From Sneathiella chungangensis (GTDB lineage Bacteria; Pseudomonadota; Alphaproteobacteria; Sneathiellales; Sneathiellaceae): DNA of 64,000 bases. How positions within the stretch are numbered: position 1 is the first letter of the stretch; the number at the start of each line of letters is the position of its first letter. The translations under genes and the position numbers were made by a program. Of the stretch, positions 1,054 through 59,465 are shown piece by piece. The notes beneath the pieces were generated by a model. The model was not told the origin of the DNA. It ran no database searches and saw only the letters and a program-made list of their open reading frames with translations. The stretch spans positions 307,117 to 371,116 of the forward strand of contig NZ_WTVA01000004.1 of the NCBI RefSeq assembly GCF_009882935.1, written 5' to 3'.

Positions 1054-2799
1054 GTGACGACTGACGGTTTGAGCAGGGGATTCCTGATCGGCGCCGCCAT
1101 TGGTTCGGGCAGCAACGCAGTTGCCGCGGAGCAGGGCGGAGCGGATTTTTTACTGGCGATTAATGCCGGGCGCCTTCGGAACATGGGTGTTCCGTCAATT
1201 TCAAGCATGTTGCCCGTCCGTAATGTCGATGCGCTTACGCTCGGATTTGCCCGCGATGAGCTGCTGCCGCTTTGCAAAATTCCTGTTCTGCTTGGCGTCA
1301 ATGTCTGGGGCGTCGATTTCGATCCCGTAAGGCAGGCGGCGGAAATCGCCCGTTCGGGCTTCGCCGGCGCGGTGAATTTCCCAAGCTGCATGCACTACTC
1401 CCGGCCCATGCAGCAGATTTTGTCGAGGGCCGGCCGCGGAATTGAGCAGGAGGTCGCCCAGCTAAAGGCCGTGCAGGATGCCGGGATGATGTCGATGTTC
1501 TATTGTGCGTCGCGGACTCAGGCGCGGCTCGCTGCTGATGCCGGTATTGCGCTGATTTGCCTGAATATCGGCTGGAATGCGGGAGGAATACTGGGACATC
1601 GGACCCGGTCGTCAATTGAGGAGGTCGCAACGGAGGCGCGCGAGATAGGCCGCCTTGTAAAACGCATCAATCCCAAAACAAGATTTCTTCTTGAGGGCGG
1701 TCCCATTGCGACGCCGGAGGATCTGTCCCGTGTTCTGCGGCTTGCGCCGCTTGATGGCTATGTAGGGGGCTCGACGATTGACAGGCTGCCACTTGAATCC
1801 TCGGTCGCCAGTCTCATCGACGGCTTCCGTCAGGCCAGTGTCCGTCCCAACCGTCTCGACGCGGAAAACCGGACTCTTTTCGCCTGGTCGGAACAATACG
1901 GGTTTGTCGGAACCTCCGACGCTCTTCTTTTATGTTTAAGAAGGCTTCGCGCCCTGGGTGCCGCGCGCGATCCGGTGCTGATCGTATCTGAGCCCGGACA
2001 GAATACCGCCCCCGCCATGCGCGCGTTGGCCAACCCTGCGGGTCTAAAGAAGGGATCAGCCAACTTGGTCCGGATCGACGTTGCCGAGCAGGACTTGCCG
2101 GCGCGTGCCCGAAATGTGCTGTTCGGACATCGGGATACAACATCGTCGAGGCCACCTTTGTTGGCGGATCCATCGGTGGATATGATTGTCATTCATGCGC
2201 CTGAACGCCTGACGAACGCTCTTCAACGCCGTTTGGCGCGGGCGATGCGTGACGGGATTTTTCGGGTCGCCGGGTCCCGCCGGTCCCTCGAGATCAAGCC
2301 CCGGATAATCTTTCAATCCGATCTCATCGTCGATGAGGACCGTCTGCATGAAGACCTGACACATGCCGGACTGGAGCCGGAGCTTGTGTCGTTGCTGGCC
2401 GGCTGGACGTTGCGTCTTCCGCCTTTGCGCGAACGGGTTGGCGATTTGCCCCTGCTGATTGCTAAATTTCTGGACGATCAAAAAGGCCCGGAATTTTCAC
2501 CTCTCGCGATGCTCAATTTGCGCGCCCATAAATGGCCGGGAAATGAAGCGGAGCTGCATATGGTTCTGGGGGCGCTGGTGGGGCGGGCGCCGACAAGCAC
2601 CGTGTCGCCTGAAGAACTGGCGCCCCTGCTTCGGTCGGAAAAGCCGGACAGCCGGAAGCGTGAGGGCCGGTCGGAAAAGGATCTGATCGTAGATACCCTC
2701 TGGCGAAACGGTTTCAACCGCTCGAAAACCGCCGAGGCGCTCGGGATATCGCGCAAAACGCTTTATAATAAAATTCGGAAATACGAGCTTTCCGGTTAG
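1054..2799 (+). CDS. Fis-type transcriptional regulator with N-terminal PEP_hydrolase-like TIM barrel and degenerate AAA+ domain
   Basis: Residues about 5-265 look like the PEP_hydrolase/TIM-barrel signal-transduction family (COG5564 type): GAAIGSGSNAVAAEQGGADF, then AVNFPS where relatives have [16 protein letters not shown], and LEGGPIATPEDL. The middle resembles an NtrC-family sigma-54 activator that has lost its ATPase: no GxTGxGKE Walker A (VSEPGQNTAPAM sits near that position) and no GAFTGA loop, yet LPPLRERVGDLPLL (about 455-468) and KWPGNEAEL (about 493-501) survive. The last 40 residues form a Fis helix-turn-helix (ALGISRKTLYNKIRKYEL). The start is GTG at 1054, because a stop codon lies immediately upstream in frame. 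I infer a DNA-binding regulator that senses a ligand through the barrel and probably does not hydrolyse ATP. Its barrel matches the enzyme-like barrel encoded at 11125, which links it to that operon. Confidence 0.82.
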   Translation: MTTDGLSRGFLIGAAIGSGSNAVAAEQGGADFLLAINAGRLRNMGVPSISSMLPVRNVDALTLGFARDELLPLCKIPVLLGVNVWGVDFDPVRQAAEIARSGFAGAVNFPSCMHYSRPMQQILSRAGRGIEQEVAQLKAVQDAGMMSMFYCASRTQARLAADAGIALICLNIGWNAGGILGHRTRSSIEEVATEAREIGRLVKRINPKTRFLLEGGPIATPEDLSRVLRLAPLDGYVGGSTIDRLPLESSVASLIDGFRQASVRPNRLDAENRTLFAWSEQYGFVGTSDALLLCLRRLRALGAARDPVLIVSEPGQNTAPAMRALANPAGLKKGSANLVRIDVAEQDLPARARNVLFGHRDTTSSRPPLLADPSVDMIVIHAPERLTNALQRRLARAMRDGIFRVAGSRRSLEIKPRIIFQSDLIVDEDRLHEDLTHAGLEPELVSLLAGWTLRLPPLRERVGDLPLLIAKFLDDQKGPEFSPLAMLNLRAHKWPGNEAELHMVLGALVGRAPTSTVSPEELAPLLRSEKPDSRKREGRSEKDLIVDTLWRNGFNRSKTAEALGISRKTLYNKIRKYELSG

Positions 2800-2802
2800 C
2801 TT

Positions 2803-3504
2803 CTATCCGAGAATTTGCGGACGGCACACCAGCCCGTCGAGAGGCTCCGGCCATTGCCGCTCATGATCCAGTTCCGTCGCCTCTCCCAGCCCCAGCAAAG
2901 CCCCGGTCCAGCCGGTCGCCTCAAGGGCCAGAGATATGTCCAGCGCCATTGACCGCCGTTGACGCAAGGAGGGAAATCCTGCAGCAAAATCGGCGATGCG
3001 CGGCAGGATTATCATCGCCTCCGGTTCCAGCGCCGCGGCCGACTTTGCGCTTGCCGCGTCGGCAACGACGATTGCAATTCTGTAGCCATATGATTTGATT
3101 TCCGAGAGTTTTTTCAACTCCCGGGAAAAATCCAATCCGACGTCGGTTAGCTGCTGCTCAAAGTCCGTATCCTGCTGGCCAACGCTTGGCAAGTTGGTTG
3201 CCCAGCGGATCTTAGTATCTGCAAGCCGGGCAAGCTCCAGCGGCAAATTGAGGAAAGGGTCTGCGAGAAACAGGCCGAGCATGCCATCCGGATGTAAATG
3301 AGCCTTGTCGATTACCGCGTCGATGAGGCGCTTTATCCCGGCATTCGTGGGCAACAACAAGCTGACCTCGTTCGGCATATTGCCGTGCTGAAACCGTGGC
3401 GCTTCCGTCAAAATGAACTCGGGAAATTGCTTTTGCGCGGTGTCAACAGCAGCGCGCAGCCCGATCCGCCATCCCATCAATTCGATCGTTGTTCCGGTTT
3501 CCAT
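2803..3504 (-). CDS. Diverged TIM-barrel (PEP_hydrolase-like) protein, function unknown
   Basis: No clear family name. By eye, the middle aligns without gaps to the TIM-barrel protein at 11125: DPF, then NLPSVG against NFPTVG, then DxxFxxxLxxxGxxxxxE, then a hydrophobic strand and AxxxAAAxxxxxII. The N-terminal GGG motif region and the C-terminal GGP region are poorly conserved, so it may be a non-catalytic paralogue. I chose ATG 3504 (METGTTIELMGW), eight bases after the GntR stop and preceded by CGGAA; an in-frame ATG at 3573 would overlap the GntR gene by 61 bases. It is convergent with the Fis-type regulator (stops three bases apart) and likely co-transcribed with the GntR gene, so a ligand-binding or co-regulator role is possible. 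Confidence 0.72.
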   Translation of the reverse strand: METGTTIELMGWRIGLRAAVDTAQKQFPEFILTEAPRFQHGNMPNEVSLLLPTNAGIKRLIDAVIDKAHLHPDGMLGLFLADPFLNLPLELARLADTKIRWATNLPSVGQQDTDFEQQLTDVGLDFSRELKKLSEIKSYGYRIAIVVADAASAKSAAALEPEAMIILPRIADFAAGFPSLRQRRSMALDISLALEATGWTGALLGLGEATELDHERQWPEPLDGLVCRPQILG

Positions 3505-3512
3505 TTCCGAAA

Positions 3513-4178
3513 TCAAATATTCAGCATGTCGTCGCGGACGGCTGCCAAATGTTCGCGCATCAGCCGCTGACAATCGACGGCGTCCCGGCGCTCGATGGCC
3601 CGGACGAGATTTTTGTGCTGCATCGAATAGCGCCGTCGCCGCTGGTCATTCAGCGTCGCCTCCTTGAGCTGTCCCCAGACCGCATGTTCTCGTATGGCGT
3701 TAACCGCGCTGAAAAGCGCCAGCAATAAAGTGTTGCGCGCGGCCTCGGCAATGGCGCGATGCAGCGCCCCATCCCACATTTCATAGGTTGCGGTATCCTT
3801 GGCAGCTTCGCCTTTTTCAAGGCATTGCTTCATGAAGGATATATCGTTGATCGTCGCCCGCCGGGCGGCCATATCGGCGATCTGGGGCTCCAGGATCAGC
3901 CGGACCTCCATGACTTCCGTCGGATTGGTAAGGTCGGCGGGAAGCGGAAAAACCTCTCGCCCTTCCGGTGGCCGTTTGCCGACAAAGGTTCCCTTGCCAA
4001 CATGTCGCCAGACTTCCCCTTCGGCCTCGAGCGCCCCCATGGCCGAGCGCAATGTCGAGCGGGATACCCGGAGCTGCGCCGCAAGATCCCGTTCAGAGGG
4101 AAGTTTTGATTGTGGCGGGAACTGAGAGGTGCGTATCAGATTTCTGAGTTCGTCCACGGTCGCGGTTTTCGACGACAT
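3513..4178 (-). CDS. FadR-subfamily GntR transcriptional regulator (FCD domain)
   Basis: 221 residues. The winged helix is clear: LPSERDLAAQLRVSRSTLRSA (about 26-46) followed by the wing GKGTFVG (about 61-67). The C-terminal all-helical FCD domain (about 85-215) keeps the pattern of acidic and histidine residues that bind metal or ligand: WDGALHRAI, QHKNLVRAI and MREHLAAV. Regulators of this type usually repress a neighbouring catabolic or transport operon and are released by a pathway acid. It is divergent from the ABC-transporter operon across an A+T-rich gap that holds CCAAT/ATTGG inverted repeats. I infer that it controls that operon and itself. Confidence 0.9.
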   Translation of the reverse strand: MSSKTATVDELRNLIRTSQFPPQSKLPSERDLAAQLRVSRSTLRSAMGALEAEGEVWRHVGKGTFVGKRPPEGREVFPLPADLTNPTEVMEVRLILEPQIADMAARRATINDISFMKQCLEKGEAAKDTATYEMWDGALHRAIAEAARNTLLLALFSAVNAIREHAVWGQLKEATLNDQRRRRYSMQHKNLVRAIERRDAVDCQRLMREHLAAVRDDMLNI

Positions 4179-4728
4179 TTTTTCTCGATTCTTTTCTGGA
4201 AGCCGTATTTTGTACTTTATAGCATACCAATTTTCAAATTGGTATGAATTTATTTGTAAAGTATAATATTGATTTTATTCATAAAAATAACTTTTAGCCA
4301 AAAAATTTGACGCCAATTATATTTATTGGATTGTTATTGGTTGGAGGGTGGACGTGAGTCCGCCATGTAAGAGAGATTATCAGCGCCCATTGCAATGATC
4401 TGGAGGTCAAAAGGGGAAATTGTGGGAAAAAATGGAAATGGCGGAGAACATAAGAAAACTGTGATTCGTATTTTAACCAAAAAAATTACCCAAACTTACC
4501 CAAATCTAAAAAACTATCATATTGCGCAGTTCACGCGGTATGGGGCAGGGTTAAGTCATCAGCGTTGAAAAATCAGCAGATACGGTCGGCCAAAAAGGCG
4601 GACCGAGAAAAATAAAAAACAGAGAATAACGTCCGGGTCGGTTCGGACGCTTTGCGGAATTACAGTTTGATGAACAGATTTCAAAGATTGCTTTGTAATC
4701 AGCGGGCAAATTTTGCATGGAGGAATCC
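4179..4728. promoter_or_regulatory. A+T-rich divergent intergenic region
   Basis: Non-coding gap between the GntR gene and the first permease, visibly richer in A+T than the flanking genes. It contains two inverted repeats with CCAAT/ATTGG arms (4223-4246 and 4313-4329), a TTGACG at 4307-4312 that could be a -35 element, and a direct repeat of TTACCCAAA at 4486-4494 and 4496-4504. No convincing ORF is present on either strand. The ribosome binding site of the permease, GGAGGA at 4719-4724, closes the region. Confidence 0.7.
4223..4246. promoter_or_regulatory. Candidate GntR operator (perfect 11-bp inverted repeat)
   Basis: CATACCAATTT, two spacer bases, then AAATTGGTATG: a perfect inverted repeat centred about 55 bases upstream of the GntR start. 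It is nested in a wider pair, TACTTTA (4213-4219) and TAAAGTA (4257-4263). FCD-type GntR proteins bind short palindromes, often with TGGT/ACCA half-sites. A second, weaker CCAAT-N7-ATTGG pair follows at 4313-4329. The assignment to this regulator is inference from position and symmetry. Confidence 0.5.
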
Positions 4729-5742
4729 ATGAAAAATTTTGCCGAACGTCATACTTTCTGGGCAATCGTTATTCTCCTGATTGCGGCGATCTTCCTGTGG
4801 ATGATTTTCACGGTTTGGCCGGACTGGCTGGTTGACGCCATGGGCCGGAAGAAAACCTTCGTAAACACGCTGCTGAACGGCATTACCCTGGGCGGCCTGT
4901 ATTTTCTCGTTGCCAGCGGCTTCACGCTGATTTTCGGCCTTATGCGAAACGTCAATCTGGCCCACGGATCGATGTACCTGCTTGGCGCCTATATCGGCTA
5001 TGAGGTCGCCGACCGGACGGGTAACTGGTTTCTGGGGCTGGCGGTCGCCTTCATTGCGGTGGCCATCAGTGGTATCCTGCTTCAGATACTGATTTTCCGC
5101 CGCATGGCCGGCGACGATCTGCGCCAGACTTTGGTGACCATCGGCATTTCGATTATCGCCGCGGACGCAATGCTGGCCATCTGGACCGGCACGACCTATC
5201 AGTTTTCACCGCCGGACTGGCTGTTCGGCGCGACGAGCCTGCCGATTATTTCCGTCATCAGGTCATCGGGTACAGCGGTTTATATCACCTATCCCGTTTA
5301 CCGGTTGGTCGTGCTCGCCGTCGCCGTTGCTGTTGGCGTTGGCCTCTGGATCTTTCTCAACCGGACGCGCATCGGCATGATGATCCGCGCCGGTGTCAAC
5401 GACCGGGACATGCTCGCCGCGACGGGTGTGAATGTGCAACTGGTTTTCGTTCTGGTCTTCGCCATTGGCGCGGGACTGGCGGGATTTGCCGGCGTCATCG
5501 GCGGAACGGCGCTCTCTGTCGCACCGGGCGAAGACGTCCGTTATCTGCTTGCATCACTGGTGGTGGTCATCGTTGGCGGGCTCGGGTCAATTGTCGGCGC
5601 GGCGATTGGCGCGCTGATCATCGGGCTCGCAGAACAGTTCGGGCTTGCGTATTTCCCGACCTACGGCGTCGTGCTGACCTTCCTGATCATGGTGGTTGTC
5701 CTCGCGGTACGGCCGCAGGGTTTGATGGGAGGACGGCAATAA
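4729..5742 (+). CDS. livH: Branched-chain amino acid-type ABC transporter permease (LivH family)
   Basis: Hydrophobic protein of 337 residues from the chosen start, with about eight to nine membrane segments. LivH-family features are NGITLGGLYFLVASGFTLIFGLMRNVNLAHGS near the N-terminus and the EAA-like loop GIMIRAG/NDRDMLAATGVN in the C-terminal half. An ATG at 4717 lies in frame, but GGAGGA at 4719-4724 sits correctly for ATG 4729. This is the first gene of the ABC importer operon and runs directly into the LivM-type gene (stop and start codons adjacent). The substrate of such permeases is set by the binding protein and cannot be read here; amino acids, amides and aromatic acids are all known for the family. 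Confidence 0.92.
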   Translation: MKNFAERHTFWAIVILLIAAIFLWMIFTVWPDWLVDAMGRKKTFVNTLLNGITLGGLYFLVASGFTLIFGLMRNVNLAHGSMYLLGAYIGYEVADRTGNWFLGLAVAFIAVAISGILLQILIFRRMAGDDLRQTLVTIGISIIAADAMLAIWTGTTYQFSPPDWLFGATSLPIISVIRSSGTAVYITYPVYRLVVLAVAVAVGVGLWIFLNRTRIGMMIRAGVNDRDMLAATGVNVQLVFVLVFAIGAGLAGFAGVIGGTALSVAPGEDVRYLLASLVVVIVGGLGSIVGAAIGALIIGLAEQFGLAYFPTYGVVLTFLIMVVVLAVRPQGLMGGRQ

Positions 5743-6813
5743 ATGAACGGACGACGTCTCTTTTCCGGTTCTTTCTCGATTTCCGATATTCATCCGGCAG
5801 TGATTGTCACCGCCGTCTTTTTGCTCGCCTATCCCAGCTTCGCATCGGACTTCTTCATCTTTCAGATCGGGGCCTATTCGCTCATTCTCGGAACCATCGC
5901 TTTGTCGCTGATGATGCTGGCCGGCTATGGTGGCATGGTGAGCCTCGCACAGCTCACCGTCGCCGGTTTCGCGGCCTATCTGGTCGCGATCCTCGGAGAC
6001 AACAGCATGGGGGTGATGGGGCTTGGCTGGCCCTGGTGGCTGACAGTCATCGTTGCGGTGTTGAGCGCCGCGCTATTCAGTACCTTCATCGGTGCCGTTT
6101 CCGTGCGGACGGAAGGTATCTACACGATCATGATCACCCTCGCCGTCGCCGTCGCCTTTTTCTATTTTGTGCGGCAGAATTATGTGCTGTTCAATGGCTT
6201 CTCCGGGTTCGCCGGGGTCGAGCCGCCAACGCTTTTCGGTATTTACTGGCGGGACCCGATGCCGTTTTACTATCTCACGCTCGCGATTGCTGTCGGCTTT
6301 TTCGGCGCGGTTTATTACGGCTCGCGCTCGACATTCGGGCTAGCCCTGCAGGCGATCCGTGACAATCCGCGGCGCATGCGGGCGCTCGGATTTAATGTCA
6401 CGCTGCATCGGATCGTCGCCTATTTCTTCGCCGGAATTATCGCGGGCTTTGCCGGCATCCTGCTTGTCTGGTTCAATGGCCGGGTTTCGCCCGGAACCAT
6501 TGGCGTCGACGTGGCGATCGATATCCTTGTCATTGCCGTTGTCGGTGGCATGCGCCATCCGATCGGCCCATTCCTTGGGGCTGTCGCCTTTGTATTGCTT
6601 GAGAATTTCGCCATCGACCTGATCGACAGGGAGCGGTTCAATATGGTGATCGGAATCGCATTCCTGCTCGTCGTTTTGTTTTCGCCTGATGGCTTACTTG
6701 GACTTTGGAACCGTTTCCGTAACAAGGTGCGGTTCAGAGGAAACGCGCTGCTGGGAGCGGAACGCGTAAACACAGACGATCCGGCCAGCACTGGATCGTT
6801 GAAGAAAAACTGA
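5743..6813 (+). CDS. livM: Branched-chain amino acid-type ABC transporter permease (LivM family)
   Basis: 356 residues with about nine to ten membrane segments. The typical LivM region is seen: LSLMMLAGYGGMVSLAQLTVAGFAAY near residues 50-75, and the cytoplasmic loop ALQAIRDNPRRMRALGFNV (about 202-220) that couples to the ATPases. ATG 5743 follows the upstream stop codon with no gap, so translation is probably coupled. It would form the membrane channel together with the preceding permease. Confidence 0.93.
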   Translation: MNGRRLFSGSFSISDIHPAVIVTAVFLLAYPSFASDFFIFQIGAYSLILGTIALSLMMLAGYGGMVSLAQLTVAGFAAYLVAILGDNSMGVMGLGWPWWLTVIVAVLSAALFSTFIGAVSVRTEGIYTIMITLAVAVAFFYFVRQNYVLFNGFSGFAGVEPPTLFGIYWRDPMPFYYLTLAIAVGFFGAVYYGSRSTFGLALQAIRDNPRRMRALGFNVTLHRIVAYFFAGIIAGFAGILLVWFNGRVSPGTIGVDVAIDILVIAVVGGMRHPIGPFLGAVAFVLLENFAIDLIDRERFNMVIGIAFLLVVLFSPDGLLGLWNRFRNKVRFRGNALLGAERVNTDDPASTGSLKKN

Positions 6814-6835
6814 ATAACAGGAGGTAGTTACAGCT

Positions 6836-8083
6836 ATGGGAAAATTAAGGCATTTATTGGCGGCGACTATAGCGTTGTCACTAACCGGCCCTGCGATCGC
6901 GTCAGCGGATGACATCAAAATGGGAGCGTTAGCGACACTGGAAGGTGCGTTTGCTGTTCTTGGTGAAGATGGCATACGCGGCGTCAAGCTGGCACTGGAA
7001 GAATTCAATTATACAGCGGGTGGAAAGAAGATCGAGCTGATTACCGGATCTTCCGACGCCTCGCCTGACAGTGCCATCCGCGCGGTCCGTAAACTGGTAG
7101 AGCAGGACGGCGTACAGCTTGTCATTGGCCCGCTTTCCGGCTCCGAAGGTCTGGCGGTGAAGGATTACGCCAAGACCCAGCCGAACGTCACTTTCCTGAA
7201 CGGCTCTTCCGCCGCTCAGGATACAACACTGCGCAGCCCCGCGGAAAACTTCTTCCGTTTCAGCACGGAAGGGGCGCAATGGATGGCCGGTCTTGGCGAA
7301 TATGCCTATAATGAAAAAGGCTATCGCAACGTTGCGGTTCTCGCGGAAGACTATTCCTTCCCCTATACCCAGGTGTTCGGATTCCTGGAGCCTTTCTGCC
7401 GTCTTGGCGGAAAATCAGCGATTGATGCCCGTTTCTGGGTACCGATCGGCAACAAGGATTATTCTTCCGTGATTGCGGCATTGCCGGATGACGTGGATGC
7501 TATCTTCGTTGCCCTTGGCGGCGCGGATGCGGTTAACTTCCTGACCCAGTATGAGCAGTCAGGCGGCGATCTTCCGCTGATCGGTGGCTCCATCACCGTG
7601 GACCAGAGTGTTCTGGGCTCCAAGGGTAAGGCACGGAAATTTGTCGTTGGCACGCCGTCCGCCGGTCCGGTTTCGGATACGTGGGACGACCCGCGCTGGA
7701 AAGAATTCGTGGCCGCCTATCAGAAGGCGTTCCCCGACGGCTTTCCGTCACCGTCCCTTTTCGCTCATGCCTATTACATCAATACAAAGGCAGCACTGTT
7801 GGCCCTCAATGAAGTCAATGGGGATCTGTCCGATGGCGAAAAGAAGTTCCGCGAAGCGCTTTCCAAACTGTCATTTGAAACACCGACAGGGATGGTCAGC
7901 GTAGACGAACGGCGCAATGCGATTGCTGATATCTTCCTCACGGAAGTGATCGAAGGGCCGGACGGCAACTTGCTGAACAAGACCATCAAGGTGATCCCGC
8001 AGGTCAATCAGACCCTGGGTGTTTCATACGAAGAGTTCCTGAAGTATGGGCAAGTTGGGCGTGAAAACCCGGCTTGTAACTAA
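6836..8083 (+). CDS. ABC transporter periplasmic substrate-binding protein (type I, LivK-like)
   Basis: 415 residues with a signal peptide of about 24 residues (basic MGKLRH, hydrophobic core, cleavage after ASA). The mature part begins DDIKMGALATLEGAFAVLGEDG and has the periplasmic-binding type I fold with DASPDSAIRAVRKLVEQDGVQLVIGPLSGSEG. It is preceded by AGGAGGTAG and sits between permease and ATPase genes. The binding site resembles no specific ligand that I recognise. It determines the substrate of the importer, so it is the key protein for identifying the system's compound. Confidence 0.92.
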   Translation: MGKLRHLLAATIALSLTGPAIASADDIKMGALATLEGAFAVLGEDGIRGVKLALEEFNYTAGGKKIELITGSSDASPDSAIRAVRKLVEQDGVQLVIGPLSGSEGLAVKDYAKTQPNVTFLNGSSAAQDTTLRSPAENFFRFSTEGAQWMAGLGEYAYNEKGYRNVAVLAEDYSFPYTQVFGFLEPFCRLGGKSAIDARFWVPIGNKDYSSVIAALPDDVDAIFVALGGADAVNFLTQYEQSGGDLPLIGGSITVDQSVLGSKGKARKFVVGTPSAGPVSDTWDDPRWKEFVAAYQKAFPDGFPSPSLFAHAYYINTKAALLALNEVNGDLSDGEKKFREALSKLSFETPTGMVSVDERRNAIADIFLTEVIEGPDGNLLNKTIKVIPQVNQTLGVSYEEFLKYGQVGRENPACN

Positions 8084-8098
8084 GGAAAGCTGAGGACT

Positions 8099-8893
8099 AT
8101 GCCCGGAACCGACGCTCTCTCCCGCCTTCAAAGCACCGGCCAGTACGCGCTGGAGCTTGAAGCCGTCAGCCGCCATTTCGGCGCGCTGGTGGCTCTGGCG
8201 GATGTCAATCTGACTGTCAAGGCAGGAGAGCGGCGCGCGGTTCTGGGATCGAATGGCGCCGGGAAAACGACGTTGTTCAACGCGATAACGGGAGACTTCC
8301 CGACGACAACCGGCCGCGTCCGGTTGTTTGGCGAGGATGTGACGGATATGCCAAGTCATGAGCGGATCCGTCGCGGCCTTCGTCGTACTTATCAAATTTC
8401 TTTGCTGTTCAACGGTTTGAGTGTTCTGGACAATACCTTTCTTGCTTGCCGGGGAGTGACTCGCGGGCGATTTTCATTGCGACGCCCGAAACGGGATGAC
8501 AGCTCGTTAGAGCTTGCGGAATCCCTGCTTGAGGCGGTGCATCTCGATGATGTGAAAGACAAACCGGTCGCGGAACTAAGCTATGGGCAGCAACGCCAAC
8601 TTGAAATCGCGCTCGCGCTTTCCGGGGCGCCAAGATTGATCCTGTTTGATGAACCGGCGGCCGGTTTATCCCCAACAGAGCGGACTCTGCTTGTTGATAT
8701 CCTGCAAAGCCTGCCCGAGCATATCGGCTATATCATTATCGAGCATGATATGGACGTCGCTCTGAAAGTCGCCGAAAGCGTGACCATGATGCATAACGGC
8801 CGGATTTTCAAGGAGGGCACGCCCGAGGAGATCGAGAACGACAGCGAAGTCCAGGAACTCTATCTGGGTCACGGAGGCGACGGCCATGGCTGA
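8099..8893 (+). CDS. livG: ABC transporter ATP-binding protein (LivG family)
   Basis: 264 residues. Walker [10 protein letters not shown] at residues 50-58, signature region [15 protein letters not shown] (about 159-173), Walker B LILFDEP with the catalytic Glu, and the switch His in IIIEHDMD. The LivG-type insertion between Walker A and signature is present ([17 protein letters not shown]). LivG members usually have LSHGEQR or LSYGQQR, as here. It overlaps the next ATPase gene by eight bases. It pairs with the ATPase half of that fusion protein. Confidence 0.93.
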
Positions 8894-11138
8894 ACGAAAC
8901 AGCAGGCGACAGGCCTCCGCTGCCGTGTTGCAGGTCAAGGATCTGCATGTCTATTACGGGCAGTCGCATGCCCTGCAGGGGGTGAACCTGAGTCTTGAAC
9001 ATGGCGTTCATGCTGTTGTCGGTCGCAACGGCATGGGCAAGACAACTCTCTGCAACGCGATCATGGGGCTATTGCCGGTGCGGCGCGGTTCCATCCGCTT
9101 TCAGGGAGAGGATATCACCGGAGCGCCGCCCTACCGAATTGCATCAAAGGGCATCGGCTATACGCCGCAGGGGCGACGTCTCTGGACGTCGCTCAGCGTG
9201 CATGATCATTTGAAGCTATGCGAAGGCGGAGGCGCCTGGACGATCGACCGCATTTACGAAACCTTTCCCCGGCTTTTTGAACGCCGGCGCAATGGCGCGG
9301 GTCAACTTTCCGGCGGTGAACAGCAAATGCTGGCCATATCGCGCGCCCTTCTGCAGGACCCGCAGCTGCTGATCCTGGACGAGCCGACGGAAGGATTGGC
9401 GCCCGTCATCGTCAATCAGGTCGAAAAACTGCTGGCGGAGCTGGCGGCGGAGGCAGACGTCTCCATCCTCCTGATCGAACAGAATATTTCCGTGGCGACC
9501 GCCATTTCCAAGGATGTGGCGATCATGGCGAATGGCCGGATCAGCAGGGTGATGCCGGCGCGCGAGCTCGCATCCGACCGGGCGTTGCAGGAACGTCTCC
9601 TCGGCGTTGGGCGGCATTCTCATGACGAGACGGAGATGTTGGCGCCCTCGCATTCGCCGGCCCCTTCCGAGGCACCGGATCCGGACGCCGGACCGGCGGA
9701 AGATACGCCTCCGCCGTCTCCGGAGACACCGCAAGAGCCGCGAAAGACTGCCGTTTACACCCCGCCGACGCGCTGGTCGCGGATCGCGTGGGAGGAGAGG
9801 GCGGCGCCGCCCGCGGAGGGCACTCAAGCGACACGCCCGTTTGATGCGGTCCCCGAACCCTTGTTCAAGGAACCCGCCGTCAATCTTGAAACCCTGCTTG
9901 GCGAAGATGTCTATGTGGCTGGTACTTTCGATACCAAAGGGGTTGAGCTTAATTTTATTCGCGACCAGATTGCGTCTCATGGCTTGCGGGTCCGGACAGT
10001 CGATCTTTCGACGACACAGAAACCCTCTTCCGCCGACGTACCGCCGCATATGGTCGCCGCCTATCATCGGGGCGGGGCCGGGGCCGTCTTTACCGGCGAT
10101 CGCGGCAAGTCGGTCCGCGCGATGGCGGAGGCGTTCGAAAACTGGATCATTCGCCAGCGGGGTATCGGCGGGATTATCTCCGCCGGCGGGTCCGGTGGCA
10201 CGGCTCTTGTGACGCCCGCCATGCGGCGGCTGCCGGTTGGGGTGCCGAAATTGATGATTTCCACGGTCGCCTCCGGCGAGGTCGGGCAGTATGTCGGGCC
10301 AACGGATATCATGATGATGTATTCGGTCACAGACGTACAGGGGCTCAACCGGATCTCCCGCCGCGTCCTTGCCAACGGCGCCAGCGCCATTTCGGGTATG
10401 GTGAAGGACGCGCAGAAGAACGCGGTGCGGTCCAATGCCGGAACCGCGAAGCCCGCTCTCGGCCTCACCATGTTCGGCGTGACGACACCGGCCGTCCAGC
10501 AATTGACGGCGGAATTGCATGATGACTATGACTGCATGGTCTTCCATGCGACCGGAACCGGCGGACGTTCAATGGAAAAACTGGTCGATAGCGGCCTTCT
10601 CGAAGCCGCCATCGACCTTACGACAACGGAAATCTGCGATATGATGATGGGCGGGTTTTTCGCGGCAACCGAAGAACGCTTCGATGCCTTCATCCGCACG
10701 CGCATTCCCTATGTCGGATCGGTCGGCGCCCTCGATATGGTCAATTTCGGTGCGAAGGAGACCGTGCCGGAGCGGTATCGCGGCCGCACATTCGTCGAGC
10801 ATAATCCGCAGATCACCCTGATGCGCACGACGCCAGCGGAAAACACGCGTATGGGGGAATGGATCGCGGCCAAACTGAACCGGATGACGGGGCCAGTGCG
10901 GTTCCTGATCCCGGAAGGTGGCGTTTCGGCGCTCGATGCGCCGGGACAGCCCTTCTATTCCCCCGAGGCCAATCGCGCGCTATTCGAAGCGCTGGCCGCT
11001 AATTTTCGGGAAACCCCCCAACGCCGCCTGATCCGAACGCCCTATCATATCAATGATCCGGCGTTCACCCAGGCTGTCATTCACGCATTGGAAGAAATTC
11101 ATCCAACCGCAAGGAGTAAGCGTCATGCCGCGTATTGA
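8886..11138 (+). CDS. Fusion of a LivF-type ABC ATPase with a Tm-1-like (UPF0261) domain
   Basis: A continuous 750-residue frame with two families. Residues about 14-240 are a LivF ATPase: Walker [10 protein letters not shown] (46-54), [12 protein letters not shown], signature LSGGEQQM (141-148), Walker [14 protein letters not shown], switch IEQN. Residues about 245-338 are a Pro/Glu/Ala-rich linker. Residues about 340-745 match UPF0261/Tm-1-like ATP-binding proteins: [14 protein letters not shown] (342-355), [61 protein letters not shown]0261 proteins are normally stand-alone in bacteria or joined to a TIM barrel in plants and fungi. Here the TIM barrel is the next gene, overlapping by 14 bases. 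No frameshift is needed to make the fusion. The physical link suggests that the Tm-1-like domain acts at the transporter. Confidence 0.93.
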
Positions 11139-11958
11139 ACGGATGGAACTGGTCAAGAAATTTCAGGATATGAAAAAACGTCGACTTCCGATTATCGGGG
11201 GCGGGGCGGGTACTGGCCTGTCGGCCAAATGTGAGGAGGCAGGCGGGATTGACCTGATCGTGATTTACAATTCCGGCCGTTACCGCATGGCGGGTCGCGG
11301 ATCATTGTCAGGGTTGCTCGCCTATGGCAATGCGAACGAGATCGTGATGGAAATGGCGCGTGAGGTTCTGCCCGTCGTCAAGCAGACCCCCGTACTCGCG
11401 GGCGTCAATGGCACGGACCCCTTCTGTCAGTTTGACAATTATCTCGACCAGGTAAAAGCGATCGGTTTCTCCGGAATCCAGAACTTTCCGACCGTCGGCC
11501 TGATCGACGGGACGTTCCGCGCCAATCTTGAGGAAACGGGAATGTCCTATTCACAGGAGGTGGACCTGATCCGCCTCGCGCATGAAAAAGATATGTTCAC
11601 GACACCCTACGTCTTCTGCGAAGAGGACGCTGCCGCCATGGCGGCGGCGGGCGCGGATATTATTGTCTGCCATCTCGGGCTCACGACCGGAGGTTCCATC
11701 GGCGCGGATACGGCGCTCAAACTGGAGGATTGCCCGGCATTGGTTGACCGCTGGGCGGCGGCGGCCCTCGATGTCAATCCCGAGGCCATCGTGCTGGTCC
11801 ATGGCGGACCGGTGTCGATGCCGGCGGATGCGCAGTATATACTCGACAACGCGAAATCATGCCACGGCTTCTACGGCGCGTCCTCCATGGAACGGTTGCC
11901 GACGGAAGTGGCGCTGACGAAGCAGACACAAGCCTTCAAGGCATTGAGCTTAGGTTAA
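11125..11958 (+). CDS. PEP_hydrolase-family TIM-barrel protein (Tm-1 C-terminal half homologue)
   Basis: 277 residues from ATG 11125, chosen because AAGGAG at 11111-11116 is correctly placed; an ATG at 11053 would overlap the upstream gene further. Family features in order: [83 protein letters not shown] and [14 protein letters not shown]. The family carries the label phosphoenolpyruvate hydrolase, but to my knowledge its reaction is not firmly established for most members. With the preceding UPF0261 domain it reconstitutes the two halves of plant Tm-1. The regulators at 1054 and 2803 encode related barrels. Confidence 0.92.
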
Positions 11959-11972
11959 GGGAGGTTGAAAGA

Positions 11973-14030
11973 ATGACAACCAGCGTAATTGGCTCGACAA
12001 TTCTCTGGCTTATCATAGCGATCATTGTCATCGCCGTGGTCGCCTATCTTCTTCACTGGCTTTACCATCGAACAACGAAGGAAGTCGCATTCGTGCGGAC
12101 AGGGTTCGGCGGTGAAACCGTTGTGATAAACGGCGGCGCGCTGGTGCTGCCAATTATTCATGAGGTGACGCCGGTCAATCTGAATGTGGTTCGCATTCCT
12201 GTGACCCGGACGAAGGAAGACGCGGTCATCACCAAGGACCGTATGCGCGTGGATATCGAGGCTGAATTCTTCGTCCGTGTTATCCAGGAGAAAAAGGCGG
12301 TCGCGGCGGCGGCCTCGACTTTGGGCAGGAAGACCATGTCGCCAGAAGCCCTGACCGACCTCCTTTCGGGCAAGTTCGTTGGCGCGCTGCGGTCTGTCGC
12401 CGCGGAAATGACCCTCGATGAAATGCATGAAAAGCGCGGCGATTTTGTAACCCGCGTCGATGAACGGGCGGCCGATGTGCTGGCGCGCAACGGCCTCGAA
12501 CTCGAAGCCGTGGCGATTACCGACCTTGATCAGACGGCACTTGAATTCTTTAACCCGGCGAACCGTTTCGATGCGGAAGGCCTTACCCAGTTGATCGAGA
12601 CGATCGAAACCCGCCGCAAGCTGCGCAATGATATCGAGCAGTCCTCCGTCGTTGCAATCCGCGCCCGCAATCTCGAGGCGGAAAAGGAAACTCTTAAGCT
12701 GGAGCAGGAGAGCGAAAGCTCCCGCCTCAATCAGGAGAGGGAACTGGAGGCCATGCGGGCCTTGCAACGGGCGGAAATTACGCATACCCGCTCCGAGAAG
12801 GAGGCCGAGGCAGAAAAATCTCGCATCCTGAACGAGCAGAAAACACGCGAAATTGAAATCGCGCGGCAGAAGGCTTTGCAGGCGGCGGAAATCAAGGCGC
12901 AGGAAGAAATCGAGAAGATGCGCGTTTCGCAGGAGCAGGAGCTGGAGGCTGTCCGCATCGACCGCGACAGGATGATCCGGGAAAAGCAGATACAGCAGCG
13001 TCATGAAATTGACTCGGCCGAAATTTCCGCGAATGAGGATGTCGAACGCGCGCGTATTGTTTCCGGACGCCTGCTGCAGGAAGCCCGGATCATGGCGGAA
13101 GAGGAGACGGAAAACCGGGATATCGCACGCGGCCAGCAGATCGAGACCGCCAGGATAGCGGCGCAAAAGGCGATCGAGACCGCGCGGATCGCCCAGGAAC
13201 AGGTTCTCGACAAGGCCCGCATCGAACGCGACCGGGTGCTGCGCGCGCAACAGATTTCCCTGCGCCAGCAGATCGAGGAAAATGAAATCTCGGCGCAGGA
13301 GGAACTCGAGCGGGCGCGGATCGCGTCGGATCGCGGCCTTGACGAAGCGCGTATCCTGAAAGAGCGGGATCTGAGACGGCTGGAGATCGAGCGGGACCAG
13401 GCGCTGGAGCTCGCAGAAATCGAGCGCCAGATCCTGATCTTGAAGGAGCAGACGGCGGTCGCCGATGCTCGTGTCCTGACCGAAGCGGCGGAAGCCAAGG
13501 CCGTCGAAGCCACCGAGAAGGTCTCAACGATCCGCGAAACGGTGATTGCGGAGCGGATCGCCGCCGTCGATAGATTGCTGGCCGAGAAGGACGCGGATAC
13601 GGCCAGAATTGCGGCGGAAACCGACAAGATTACCGCCGCTGTCCAGGCGGAAGCGCAACGGTTGCAGAATGAAGCAGAAAACATCCTTAGCGAAGATGCG
13701 CGGGCTGGACGTCTGCGGTCCAAGATGCTGGACCGGCTGGAAGGCATCGTGCGCGAGAGCGTCAAGCCGATGGAGAATATCGATGGCATCAAGATCCTCC
13801 ATGTCGATGGGTTGGGCGGCAGCGCTGGCAGTGGTCACCGTTCTCCCACGGACGAAGTGATTGAAAGTGCGCTCCGTTACCGGGCCCAGGCGCCGCTGAT
13901 CGACGAGATGATGCGGGAAATCGGCGTTGAAAACCCGGGTGTGACCAAGATGGGTGATATTTTCCGCTCCGCCAAGGATGCGCAAAGCCTTGCCAAGGCG
14001 GCCAAGTCGGACAAGAGCGAGGACGATTAA
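11973..14030 (+). CDS. Flotillin-like SPFH/Band 7 membrane scaffold with hendecad coiled coil
   Basis: 685 residues from ATG 11973, preceded by AGGGAGGT (an upstream in-frame start would overlap the TIM-barrel gene). One N-terminal membrane segment (about 10-32), then an SPFH domain (about 40-230: VRTGFGGETVVINGGALVLP, IPVTRTKEDAVITKDRMRVDIEAEFFVRV). Residues 283-480 form 18 uninterrupted 11-residue units with Ile or Val at unit position 3 and usually Leu/Ile at position 9, a right-handed coiled-coil pattern. An Ala/Glu-rich flotillin-type helix and a C-terminal globular tail follow. Flotillins organise membrane microdomains; YqiK-type proteins are the nearest bacterial label. Presence inside a transporter-catabolic operon suggests a scaffold for the importer. 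Confidence 0.9.
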   Translation: MTTSVIGSTILWLIIAIIVIAVVAYLLHWLYHRTTKEVAFVRTGFGGETVVINGGALVLPIIHEVTPVNLNVVRIPVTRTKEDAVITKDRMRVDIEAEFFVRVIQEKKAVAAAASTLGRKTMSPEALTDLLSGKFVGALRSVAAEMTLDEMHEKRGDFVTRVDERAADVLARNGLELEAVAITDLDQTALEFFNPANRFDAEGLTQLIETIETRRKLRNDIEQSSVVAIRARNLEAEKETLKLEQESESSRLNQERELEAMRALQRAEITHTRSEKEAEAEKSRILNEQKTREIEIARQKALQAAEIKAQEEIEKMRVSQEQELEAVRIDRDRMIREKQIQQRHEIDSAEISANEDVERARIVSGRLLQEARIMAEEETENRDIARGQQIETARIAAQKAIETARIAQEQVLDKARIERDRVLRAQQISLRQQIEENEISAQEELERARIASDRGLDEARILKERDLRRLEIERDQALELAEIERQILILKEQTAVADARVLTEAAEAKAVEATEKVSTIRETVIAERIAAVDRLLAEKDADTARIAAETDKITAAVQAEAQRLQNEAENILSEDARAGRLRSKMLDRLEGIVRESVKPMENIDGIKILHVDGLGGSAGSGHRSPTDEVIESALRYRAQAPLIDEMMREIGVENPGVTKMGDIFRSAKDAQSLAKAAKSDKSEDD
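12819..13412 (+). repeat. 33-bp-periodic coding repeat (18 hendecads)
   Basis: Within the flotillin gene, 594 bases encode 18 successive 11-residue units of the form xxIxxxxxxhx, where h is usually Leu/Ile. Several units begin with ARI. The DNA units are diverged from one another, so this is old protein periodicity, not a recent tandem duplication. It makes up about 29 percent of the protein. Confidence 0.8.
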
Positions 14031-14471: not shown

Positions 14472-15977
14472 TTGGTTTCAGTCCGTCGCAGTACTGTCAT
14501 TGATGCTCCGATCGAGGCGGTCTGGGAAATTCTGCGCGATTTCAACGGCCATGACCGCTGGCATCCGGCTGTCCGGCGAAGCCGTCTGGACGGCGGCAAG
14601 CGCACCGACCAGGTAAGCGCCGTCCGTAATTTCGAGCTTACCGAAGGTGCGCATCTGCGCGAACAACTCCTGTCCATGTCCGACGAGGATCACAGCTTCC
14701 GTTATGCGATTGTGGAAAGCGAAATACCGCTTCACAATTATATCGCCGAGGTTTCCCTGAAACCGGTGACCGATGGAAATGGCACCTTCTGGTCCTGGTC
14801 ATCGCGCTTCGATACGCCAAAGGGGCGGGAGAAGGAGCTTGAGCAGCTTGTCGCCGAAGGGGTTTATCAAGCGGGGTTTGAGGCCGTGCGGACGCGATTG
14901 GAACGACAGAGGTCGGGATCGCTGTCGTCAGACCGGCCATTAACGAGATCGACCGCGACCGCCAGTAATGCCGGCCTGCCGGGCATGGCCATGGGGATCA
15001 ACCGGTATGGCGGACCAGAGGAACTGCAGTCCGTGGAGGTTGTTGCGCCGCCGCCGGGGCCCGGCGAAGTTCGTCTCCGTCAGAGCGCAATCGGCGTCAA
15101 TTATATCGATGTCTATTGCCGCTCCGGATATTTCAATCTCCTGAAGCCGCCCGGCGTCCCCGGAATGGAGGCGGTGGGGGTTGTCGAGAGCGTTGGCTCC
15201 GGCGTCCGCCATTTGTCCGCTGGGCAACGGGTCGGCTATGCCTGCCCACCGGTCGGCGCCTATGCCACCGTGCGCACAATGCCTGCCGCGCTGGTCGTTC
15301 CCCTACCTGACCGGATTGATGATGTCACGGCGGCGGCAGCCTTGCTGAAAGGCATGTCGGCGGAATTTCTCCTGCATCGGGTGCATCCCGTCAAAAAGGG
15401 CGATGTCGTTCTTGTTTATGCGCCGGCGGGCGGGGTGGGCCGCATTCTCTGTCAATGGGCGAACCATCTCGGTGCGACGGTTATCGGCGCAACATCCAGC
15501 GAGGAAAAGGCGCGCATCGCCCGGGCGGCGGGTGCGCATCATGTCCTCTTGCCGGGTGCGGCAAGTCTGGAAGATCAGGTGAAGGCGCTCACACGGGGGC
15601 ATGGCGCGGATGTCATCTATGATGCGGTGGGCCGGGACAGCTTCGATCACTCGGTGGCGGCGCTCGCGACCTGTGGTCATCTTGTGAGTTTCGGCCAAGC
15701 CTCCGGTGATATCGGCGCGCGTGATATTAGTTCACTCGCGTCGAAATCCGCAACAATTTCCCGGCCGAACTTCGGCCATTACACGGACACGCCACAGAAG
15801 GTCGCGGCGATCACGAAACGCCTGTTCGACGCGATTGACCGGCATATCATTTCGATAGAGATCGGCCAGCGGTTTCCTCTATCGCGGGCCGCAGACGCCC
15901 ACCGCGCACTGGAGGCCCGCGAGACAACCGGATCGACCGTGCTTATTCCCGACGACAATCAGAAAGGTAAAATATGA
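14472..15977 (+). CDS. SRPBCC domain fused to a quinone oxidoreductase-type (MDR) reductase
   Basis: 501 residues starting at TTG 14472, placed by GGGAGG at 14461-14466; no ATG or GTG is suitably positioned. Residues 1-145 are an SRPBCC domain related to the preceding gene. After a linker rich in Ser and Thr (about 146-165), residues 170-495 are a medium-chain dehydrogenase of the quinone oxidoreductase group: GVNYIDVYCRSGYF, GMEAVGVVESVG, NADPH-binding YAPAGGVGRILCQWANHLGA, and SFGQASGDI. There are no zinc ligands of the alcohol dehydrogenase type. I infer that a bound hydrophobic enone or quinone is reduced by NADPH. The fusion is unusual and lies in frame without ambiguity. Confidence 0.9.
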   Translation: MVSVRRSTVIDAPIEAVWEILRDFNGHDRWHPAVRRSRLDGGKRTDQVSAVRNFELTEGAHLREQLLSMSDEDHSFRYAIVESEIPLHNYIAEVSLKPVTDGNGTFWSWSSRFDTPKGREKELEQLVAEGVYQAGFEAVRTRLERQRSGSLSSDRPLTRSTATASNAGLPGMAMGINRYGGPEELQSVEVVAPPPGPGEVRLRQSAIGVNYIDVYCRSGYFNLLKPPGVPGMEAVGVVESVGSGVRHLSAGQRVGYACPPVGAYATVRTMPAALVVPLPDRIDDVTAAAALLKGMSAEFLLHRVHPVKKGDVVLVYAPAGGVGRILCQWANHLGATVIGATSSEEKARIARAAGAHHVLLPGAASLEDQVKALTRGHGADVIYDAVGRDSFDHSVAALATCGHLVSFGQASGDIGARDISSLASKSATISRPNFGHYTDTPQKVAAITKRLFDAIDRHIISIEIGQRFPLSRAADAHRALEARETTGSTVLIPDDNQKGKI

Positions 15978-58373: not shown

Positions 58374-59465
58374 TCAGCCGGCGAGCAGCTGGTTCATGTT
58401 TGAAAAGGCAGTCTCGCTTTCGGTGACCAGCCGCTGCATGATCTCGTCGACGGTTTTAAGCTCGTTGAACCAGGCGATGCTCTGGCCCGTCGCCTCATAG
58501 ATAAGCGGTTCGATCTCATGCTCATTGATCCCGGCGATGATATCGGCGGTGAGGACCTGCTGATAGGGCATTTTAAGGGGCTTCGGTGCGTCGGGCCGGT
58601 CCCATTCGTCGGTCCATGCGGACTTGATCAGGCGGCAGGACTTGCCGCTATGACTGAGCGAGATTGTGGTATCCAGGCTGTCAGCTTTCAGGAGCTTGGC
58701 CAGAAGCGCTTCGCATAGCGCATGTTCCTTTGACGCAAGCCAGGCGGTGCCAAGCCAGACGCCTTGTGCCCCGAGCGCGAAGGAAGCGGCAATATGTCGT
58801 CCATGGCCAACGCCGCCCGCCGCGAGGACAGGGATATCGCCCGCAACATCGACAACCTGCGGGACGAGTGAGAAAGTACCGATCGGACCCGTATGTCCGC
58901 CCGCGTCATAGCCTTGCGCGACGATCACATCAACTCCGGCCGCCTTCGCCTTTTCGGCATGGCGCGGCGCGCCAACAAGGGAGAAGGTGATCTTGCCGTG
59001 GTCCTTGGCCCGCTTGATCATTTCCGGCGGCATGCCGACAGCGGAGGCAAAACTATGGGCCTGGGATTCAAGTGTTGCCGCCATCTGTTCCTCGAATAGC
59101 TGCTGGGAGCGGATTTGCGAGGAAAAAAACGTCGGTTTCGTTGCGCGCGGCACCTTGTATTTATCGGCGATCTTGCAGACAAATTCCTTATGCTCGCGGG
59201 GAAGCGCCGCCAGACTTGCGCGGCGATCTGTCTCGTCACCGACCGAGGTTGGCAGCATCAGGTCTATCCCGAAGGGAAGGTCGCCGAGTTCCTCCTTCAT
59301 GATCCGGGCCTCTTCGGCAATTTCCTCGGGCATGCTGCGCGCTGCGCCGAATACCGGATATCCGCCTGCTTTCGCCAGCGCCACCATCACATCGATACTA
59401 TGGGCGAGGCCGAAGACCGGGTAGCGGATGCCCATTTTCTCGCAGATTGGTGACGTCAGTTTCAT
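58374..59465 (-). CDS. NPD-type (nitronate monooxygenase-like) FMN protein
   Basis: 363 residues from ATG 59465 (MKLTSPICEKMG); the frame is open further upstream into non-family sequence. TIM barrel with FMN-binding region VIVAQGYDAGGHTGPIGTFSL (split) and VLAAGGVGHGRHIAASFALGAQGVWLGTAWLA (split). The His in AGGHTG is the catalytic base of nitronate monooxygenases, but many family members act on acyl-CoA or have unknown substrates. It sits between IclR and acyl-CoA dehydrogenase genes. Confidence 0.88.
   Translation of the reverse strand: MKLTSPICEKMGIRYPVFGLAHSIDVMVALAKAGGYPVFGAARSMPEEIAEEARIMKEELGDLPFGIDLMLPTSVGDETDRRASLAALPREHKEFVCKIADKYKVPRATKPTFFSSQIRSQQLFEEQMAATLESQAHSFASAVGMPPEMIKRAKDHGKITFSLVGAPRHAEKAKAAGVDVIVAQGYDAGGHTGPIGTFSLVPQVVDVAGDIPVLAAGGVGHGRHIAASFALGAQGVWLGTAWLASKEHALCEALLAKLLKADSLDTTISLSHSGKSCRLIKSAWTDEWDRPDAPKPLKMPYQQVLTADIIAGINEHEIEPLIYEATGQSIAWFNELKTVDEIMQRLVTESETAFSNMNQLLAG

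Follow-up and report, generated by a model that had tools for sequence, protein, structure and literature searches.

The gene at positions 1054–2799 (+) of the analysed window, a stretch of 64,000 nucleotides from Sneathiella chungangensis, encodes a regulator of 581 amino acids (here REG) composed of a PF09370 TIM barrel, an inactive AAA+ domain and a Fis-type helix-turn-helix (HTH). It is an enhancer-binding protein (EBP) minus every motor part, retained in bacteria without sigma-54, and it probably senses a ligand and activates the neighbouring liv-UPF0261-PEP_hydrolase operon independently of sigma-54.

The open reading frame is intact, with a GTG start codon. Residues 10–260 (1081–1833, +) match the PEP_hydrolase family PF09370 in Pfam with 187.2 bits against a gathering cut-off of 33.8, residues 459–535 (2428–2658, +) hold an AAA lid remnant (AAA_lid_14, 37 bits) and residues 541–577 (2674–2784, +) form the HTH (HTH_8) with the recognition helix SRKTLYNKI. 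Within this helix R567, K568, T569, L570, Y571 and N572 are invariant across 39 aligned rows, as are many barrel positions. Pfam gives no Sigma54_activat match in REG; the AAA+ fold of the middle part is confirmed both by profile and by model. An AlphaFold2 model based on 39 orthologs (pLDDT 82; pTM 0.50, at which the placement of one domain against another is unreliable) consists of eight beta-alpha units, followed by the AAA+ fold and the three HTH helices. With Foldseek, the barrel retrieves all six chains of 2p10 (Mll9387), the nearest solved barrel, with a TM score of 0.78 on the target and 28% identity, while the middle part retrieves NtrX, NtrC1 and PspF. The sequence-only reading had proposed such a barrel as the N-terminal domain of a Fis-HTH protein, with a second member of the family encoded separately at 11125; profile and structural match agree with it on the first point, and a PF09370 score of 427 bits on the second.

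The motor of the AAA+ domain is gone. At the position of Walker A, where GxxxxGK[ST] is expected, REG has SEPGQNT (residues 312–318; 1987–2007, +), and a GK[ST] occurs in none of the approximately 43 orthologs. The L1/GAFTGA region (residues 356–368; 2119–2157, +) is replaced by the unrelated segment LFGHRDTTSSRPP, about 5 residues shorter, and the former Walker B (residues 375–383; 2176–2202, +) reads VDMIVIHAP, with MIVIHAP in place of hhhhDE. Both arginine-finger positions are lost, LRKDLYYRL of the distant relative L013 aligning with LEPELVSLL of REG. The late AAA+ motifs LPPLRER and WPGNE are still present. The earlier description of an AAA+ domain without Walker A and sigma-54 contact loop that keeps its late motifs is thus borne out, no working Walker A being detected in REG; the losses of Walker B and of both arginine fingers are additional to it. 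Walker A, Walker B, GAFTGA and arginine fingers are missing in every ortholog that covers the region (about 43 true orthologs, 40–79% identical, taken from two collections and belonging to Sneathiella, Kiloniellales, Rhodobacterales and Stappia), and these complete-loss orthologs form one tree group with a support of 100/100. Because the same motifs are missing in all of them, the degeneracy is, on this comparative evidence, ancestral and maintained rather than a product of chance. More distant relatives show partial states: in L012–L014 Walker A is nearly complete (GKS or RKT) and Walker B is of the DE or EE type, with GAFTGA missing, and L043, L107, L151, L152 and L154 retain GKR and lack Walker B. 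No GAFTGA was found in any PF09370 regulator among the sequences examined, in a search seeded with the window's type and thinly sampled outside Alphaproteobacteria. Complete motor-motif loss is therefore, as judged from these alignments, the mark of the window's group, GAFTGA being absent from every member examined.

Two conventional explanations of this protein can be weighed here. The disappearance of all catalytic motifs from the AAA+ domain could be taken as the sign of a decaying pseudogene, a reading that can practically be dismissed and is already contradicted, since the frame is open in orthologs down to 40% identity (with the sole exception of L097, in which it breaks at query residue 469), HTH and barrel residues are invariant, and synteny is retained across orthologs. 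That REG is an ordinary sigma-54 EBP with a divergent motor is suggested by the annotation of its relatives as ‘sigma-54-dependent Fis family transcriptional regulator’ and by the presence of rpoN in the window genome. This is nevertheless very improbable, as every motif for handling ATP or sigma-54 is missing in all orthologs, there is no −24/−12 element near the target operon (matches across the window being at chance level), and the reading is already contradicted in nine REG-carrying genomes, of unstated completeness, in which rpoN was not detected with PF04552 and PF04963. These are Roseivivax jejudonensis, Roseivivax sediminis, Tranquillimonas rosea, Tranquillimonas alkanivorans, Palleronia marisminoris and four metagenome-assembled genomes, all with the complete-loss type of REG; the same two models do detect RpoN in the window genome and in other carriers. 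Incomplete assembly is unlikely as the cause, since the nine include five named strains. Having no rpoN gene, these carriers cannot use REG as a sigma-54 activator, which, together with the ortholog-wide motif loss, strengthens the earlier view of a dead AAA+ frame. The relatives annotated as sigma-54-dependent are likely misnamed.

The presumed target is an operon of the uptake-and-breakdown type in a marine bacterium. Its first part encodes LivH, LivM, a substrate-binding protein and LivG (4717–8893, +), followed by LivF and UPF0261 (Tm-1-like ATP-binding) fused in one protein of 750 amino acids (8886–11138, +) and by the enzyme-like PEP_hydrolase barrel (11125–11958, +; PF09370, 427 bits; 2p10, E = 5e-120). 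The fusion, which joins an ABC transporter ATPase to a Tm-1-like ATP-binding protein, may be common, judging from gene spacing in other loci. Inside the operon, 11859–14030 encodes an SPFH/flotillin-like protein whose charged region is very long. At 14472–15977 an SRPBCC (polyketide cyclase-like) domain is fused to a quinone oxidoreductase, with a separate SRPBCC gene adjoining. A GntR/FCD regulator identified by Pfam (3513–4178, −) sits between the mini-barrel gene described below and the operon in the window; roughly half of the loci lack it, and it is not a constant part of the module. Just upstream of it the palindrome CATACCAATTTTCAAATTGGTATG (4223–4246), also a terminator-like stem, is a possible GntR operator.

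The predicted REG operator is the tandem direct repeat TTACCCAAACTTACCC (4486–4501, +), of the form TTACCC-N4-TTACCC, which lies in the gap between the mini-barrel (or GntR) gene and LivH and was found on inspecting printed gap sequences. A search of this gap for symmetric dyads, which covered loci with gaps of up to 450 bp, yielded no convincing candidate when compared with shuffles. The likely operator falls within the 4179–4728 gap that the sequence-only reading had named for DNA binding, where it went unnoticed. With up to one mismatch the repeat occurs in 40 of 41 carrier loci (a few of them near-duplicates), always in the same orientation and upstream of the operon, while 0.05 occurrences would be expected in the window; among full carrier loci of the type seen in the window, L073 (13144–13734) alone has no recognisable copy. 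Exactly 20 bp 3′ of the repeat, in the alignment anchored on it, stands the TTG of a −35-like element (4522–4524, +), its three letters conserved in 39, 38 and 36 of 40 loci, respectively. Weaker A and T preferences at +61 and +66 agree approximately with a −35/−10 pair. The −10 element is weak, and a scan of the window with the sigma-70 consensus did not pick a promoter at the repeat. Of 24 carrier genomes, 19 contain the exact repeat, as a rule in a single copy, against 1 of 10 non-carriers, and in the window genome it occurs once, at the operon. It is absent, even with one mismatch allowed, from all 20 orthologous or related operons without adjacent REG and mini-barrel, a co-occurrence partly confounded by descent; in two of these 20 LivH is 78–79% identical, and one (L140) comes from a genome that encodes a distant regulator elsewhere. 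Some 20–25 bp upstream of the repeat, a GATTC/GAATC element is visible in the window and in many of the loci L065–L101, overlapping the start of the mini-barrel gene in several.

In the mechanism proposed here, REG would derive from an EBP, and its AAA+ remnant would neither bind nor burn ATP and would serve as a mere scaffold or oligomerisation body. The barrel would bind a metabolite of the neighbouring liv-UPF0261-PEP_hydrolase pathway, and the Fis HTH would bind the tandem TTACCC repeat, whose 10-bp period is about one helical turn. If the TTG is a −35, REG would stand at about −65 relative to the start site, as class I activators do, and would act as one on housekeeping RNA polymerase; the genome comparison of operator position and TTG spacing is compatible with this. 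The lack of a motor, the hosts without sigma-54 and the rigidly spaced site near −65 together are in keeping with class I activation of the housekeeping polymerase, and activation is considered more likely than repression.

Many catabolic operons are under repression, and REG could instead repress via the repeat until the ligand (or the mini-barrel) releases it. This is rather unlikely, given that the repeat precedes the −35-like TTG by a constant distance, the place of an activator, and does not lie over or after the promoter. A different concern is the repeat itself. The usual target of a Fis-type HTH dimer is an inverted repeat, and direct repeats with a period of 10–11 bp are characteristic of OmpR-type proteins rather than of Fis-type ones; the site is thus unusual for REG and could belong to another protein, encoded elsewhere, with REG controlling something else. 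The GntR regulator was considered as the binder and rejected on account of its absence from so many loci, which leaves REG as the only DNA-binding protein that is constantly present. Moreover, operons without adjacent REG and mini-barrel do not have the repeat, and it tracks the target promoter when the gene order changes, which makes a separate binder distinctly unlikely.

Convergent with REG and overlooked in the sequence-only reading lies a conserved partner gene for a degenerate PF09370 barrel, the mini-barrel (2803–3504, −). Its PF09370 score of 25.3 bits is below the gathering cut-off of 33.8; its model is confident (pLDDT 92.6, pTM 0.91), the six top PDB matches being the six 2p10 chains. 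A homolog adjoins REG in nearly all loci, including the distant types and the rhizobial and Azospirillum plasmids, and accompanies two of the REG homologs with different recognition helices (TTRTLYSK/STRTLYNK). In two Stappia loci it lies about 5 kb from REG, beside the operon; it was not found within the short stretch available for L012, nor detected in the 20 equivalent operons without REG. The near-constancy of this pairing argues for the mini-barrel as a partner of REG. Most likely it would bind the REG barrel and tune its response. The two proteins have complementary losses, D98 and D128 being present in the mini-barrel and lost in REG, and the GRxR, GGP and GxS loops present in REG and lost in the mini-barrel, as expected if both build one composite site. 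The full picture, in which a single locus divides the work among three PF09370 barrels (one an enzyme, one a sensor on a motor-less EBP frame and one a pseudo-barrel in a hetero-oligomeric switch) and acts through a direct-repeat site, also in hosts without sigma-54, is put forward tentatively, as somewhat less likely than not. A further PF09370 match of 20 bits at about 58884–59099 was set aside as probable chance.

The pockets were compared at 102 positions that are invariant among 51 enzyme-type barrels, of which 39 are retained in at least 90% of the regulators and 8 in the mini-barrels. The regulators keep N49, G51, R52, R54, N120, P122, E145, Y162, G227-G228-P229, S253, R257 and P259, and with them the loops N-x-G-R-x-R, N-F-P, G-G-P and G-x-S-x-x-x-R-x-P. 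They share the fold of PF09370 (PEP_hydrolase, formerly TIM-br_sig_trns) and of 2p10, the only solved relative found, and differ from the enzymes in replacing D98, H183 (by N), T187 (by N) and H226 (by E); mini-barrels also lack the GGP and GASS loops. This pattern would fit binding without turnover, in a family whose PEP/phosphonopyruvate hydrolase name comes from homology; a sensor role for the REG barrel is plausible. The earlier suggestion that regulator and enzyme bind the same ligand is only indirectly supported, by the retained positions and loops, with D98, H183 and H226 of the enzyme replaced; a related, non-identical ligand is equally possible. A common fold, a partly common pocket and an apparent single target suggest that the barrel would sense the operon's own metabolite.

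On rhizobial and Azospirillum plasmids, the REG homologs have the recognition helix SRKTLYNK in those that were read, and their target genes begin with UPF0261 or a different transporter. In L151, L152, L153 (twice), L156 and L157 the first gene is preceded by a closely similar repeat with TTG at the 20-bp spacing; L154 and L160 have TTC or TTA instead of TTG, and L155, L158, L159, L161 and L162 show no clear site. No repeat was found within approximately 4.5–4.7 kb of each of the homologs with different helices (L012–L014; TTRTLYSK/STRTLYNK). The Azospirillum locus L153 carries the repeat at both promoters that flank the REG/mini-barrel pair, at 5912 (−) and 8391 (+), each with a TTG 20 bp beyond, the second with one mismatch. 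L151 (3936–10337, M. japonicum pMLa) and L152 (pNGR234a) hold clusters of mini-barrel, UPF0261, PEP_hydrolase, cupin, Gfo/Idh and REG-like genes on symbiotic plasmids, the REG-like gene being annotated as sigma-54-dependent, yet lacking GAFTGA and Walker B.

Several elements of this system have precedents. EBPs without GAFTGA include Rhodobacter capsulatus NtrC, HupR, TyrR, DhaR, VpsR and Caulobacter NtrC, all with known or expected activity at sigma-70 promoters (PMC3162934; PMC10274813); use of ATP binding is reported for R. capsulatus NtrC, and a requirement for both ATP binding and hydrolysis for Caulobacter NtrC (PMC10274813). Like the R. capsulatus NtrC type, REG has no GAFTGA and, by genomic inference, works without sigma-54; unlike it, REG has no Walker A and hence no ATP-binding motif of that kind, and it differs from the atypical EBPs in lacking also Walker B and arginine fingers and in having some hosts without rpoN. 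The Photorhabdus protein plu1011, named in 2008 as ‘TIM-br_sig_trns-Domain, putative sigma54-dependent transcriptional activator’, embodies the same idea of a barrel in a sigma-54-type regulator and adjoins a PRK02399-domain (UPF0261-type) gene (PMC2422844). It is likened to REG by its table name, in a study without motor-motif or operator analysis. UPF0261 and TIM-barrel domains of Tm-1 and Tm-1-like proteins are reported as a co-evolving pair (PMC5028733), and the operon has both families, each encoded by a gene of its own; in the parts of that account consulted, neither a regulator nor a mini-barrel partner was found. GAFTGA loss with sigma-70 activity, the barrel-in-activator architecture and the UPF0261-barrel pair are thus already known, and complete motor loss, the mini-barrel partner and the operator repeat appear new, with no report in the searchable literature.

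For the UPF0261/PEP_hydrolase pair, a bacterial relative of tomato Tm-1, no known substrate was found in the literature, where the reports bearing on function were limited to a Brucella attenuation screen and an expression list. REG, whose barrel belongs to the same family and which has a defined candidate operator and an apparent single target, would offer a direct route to the ligand of this pair, by reporter or binding screen. REG, the degenerate third barrel and one conserved DNA site together would make the ligand of the Tm-1 family experimentally accessible.
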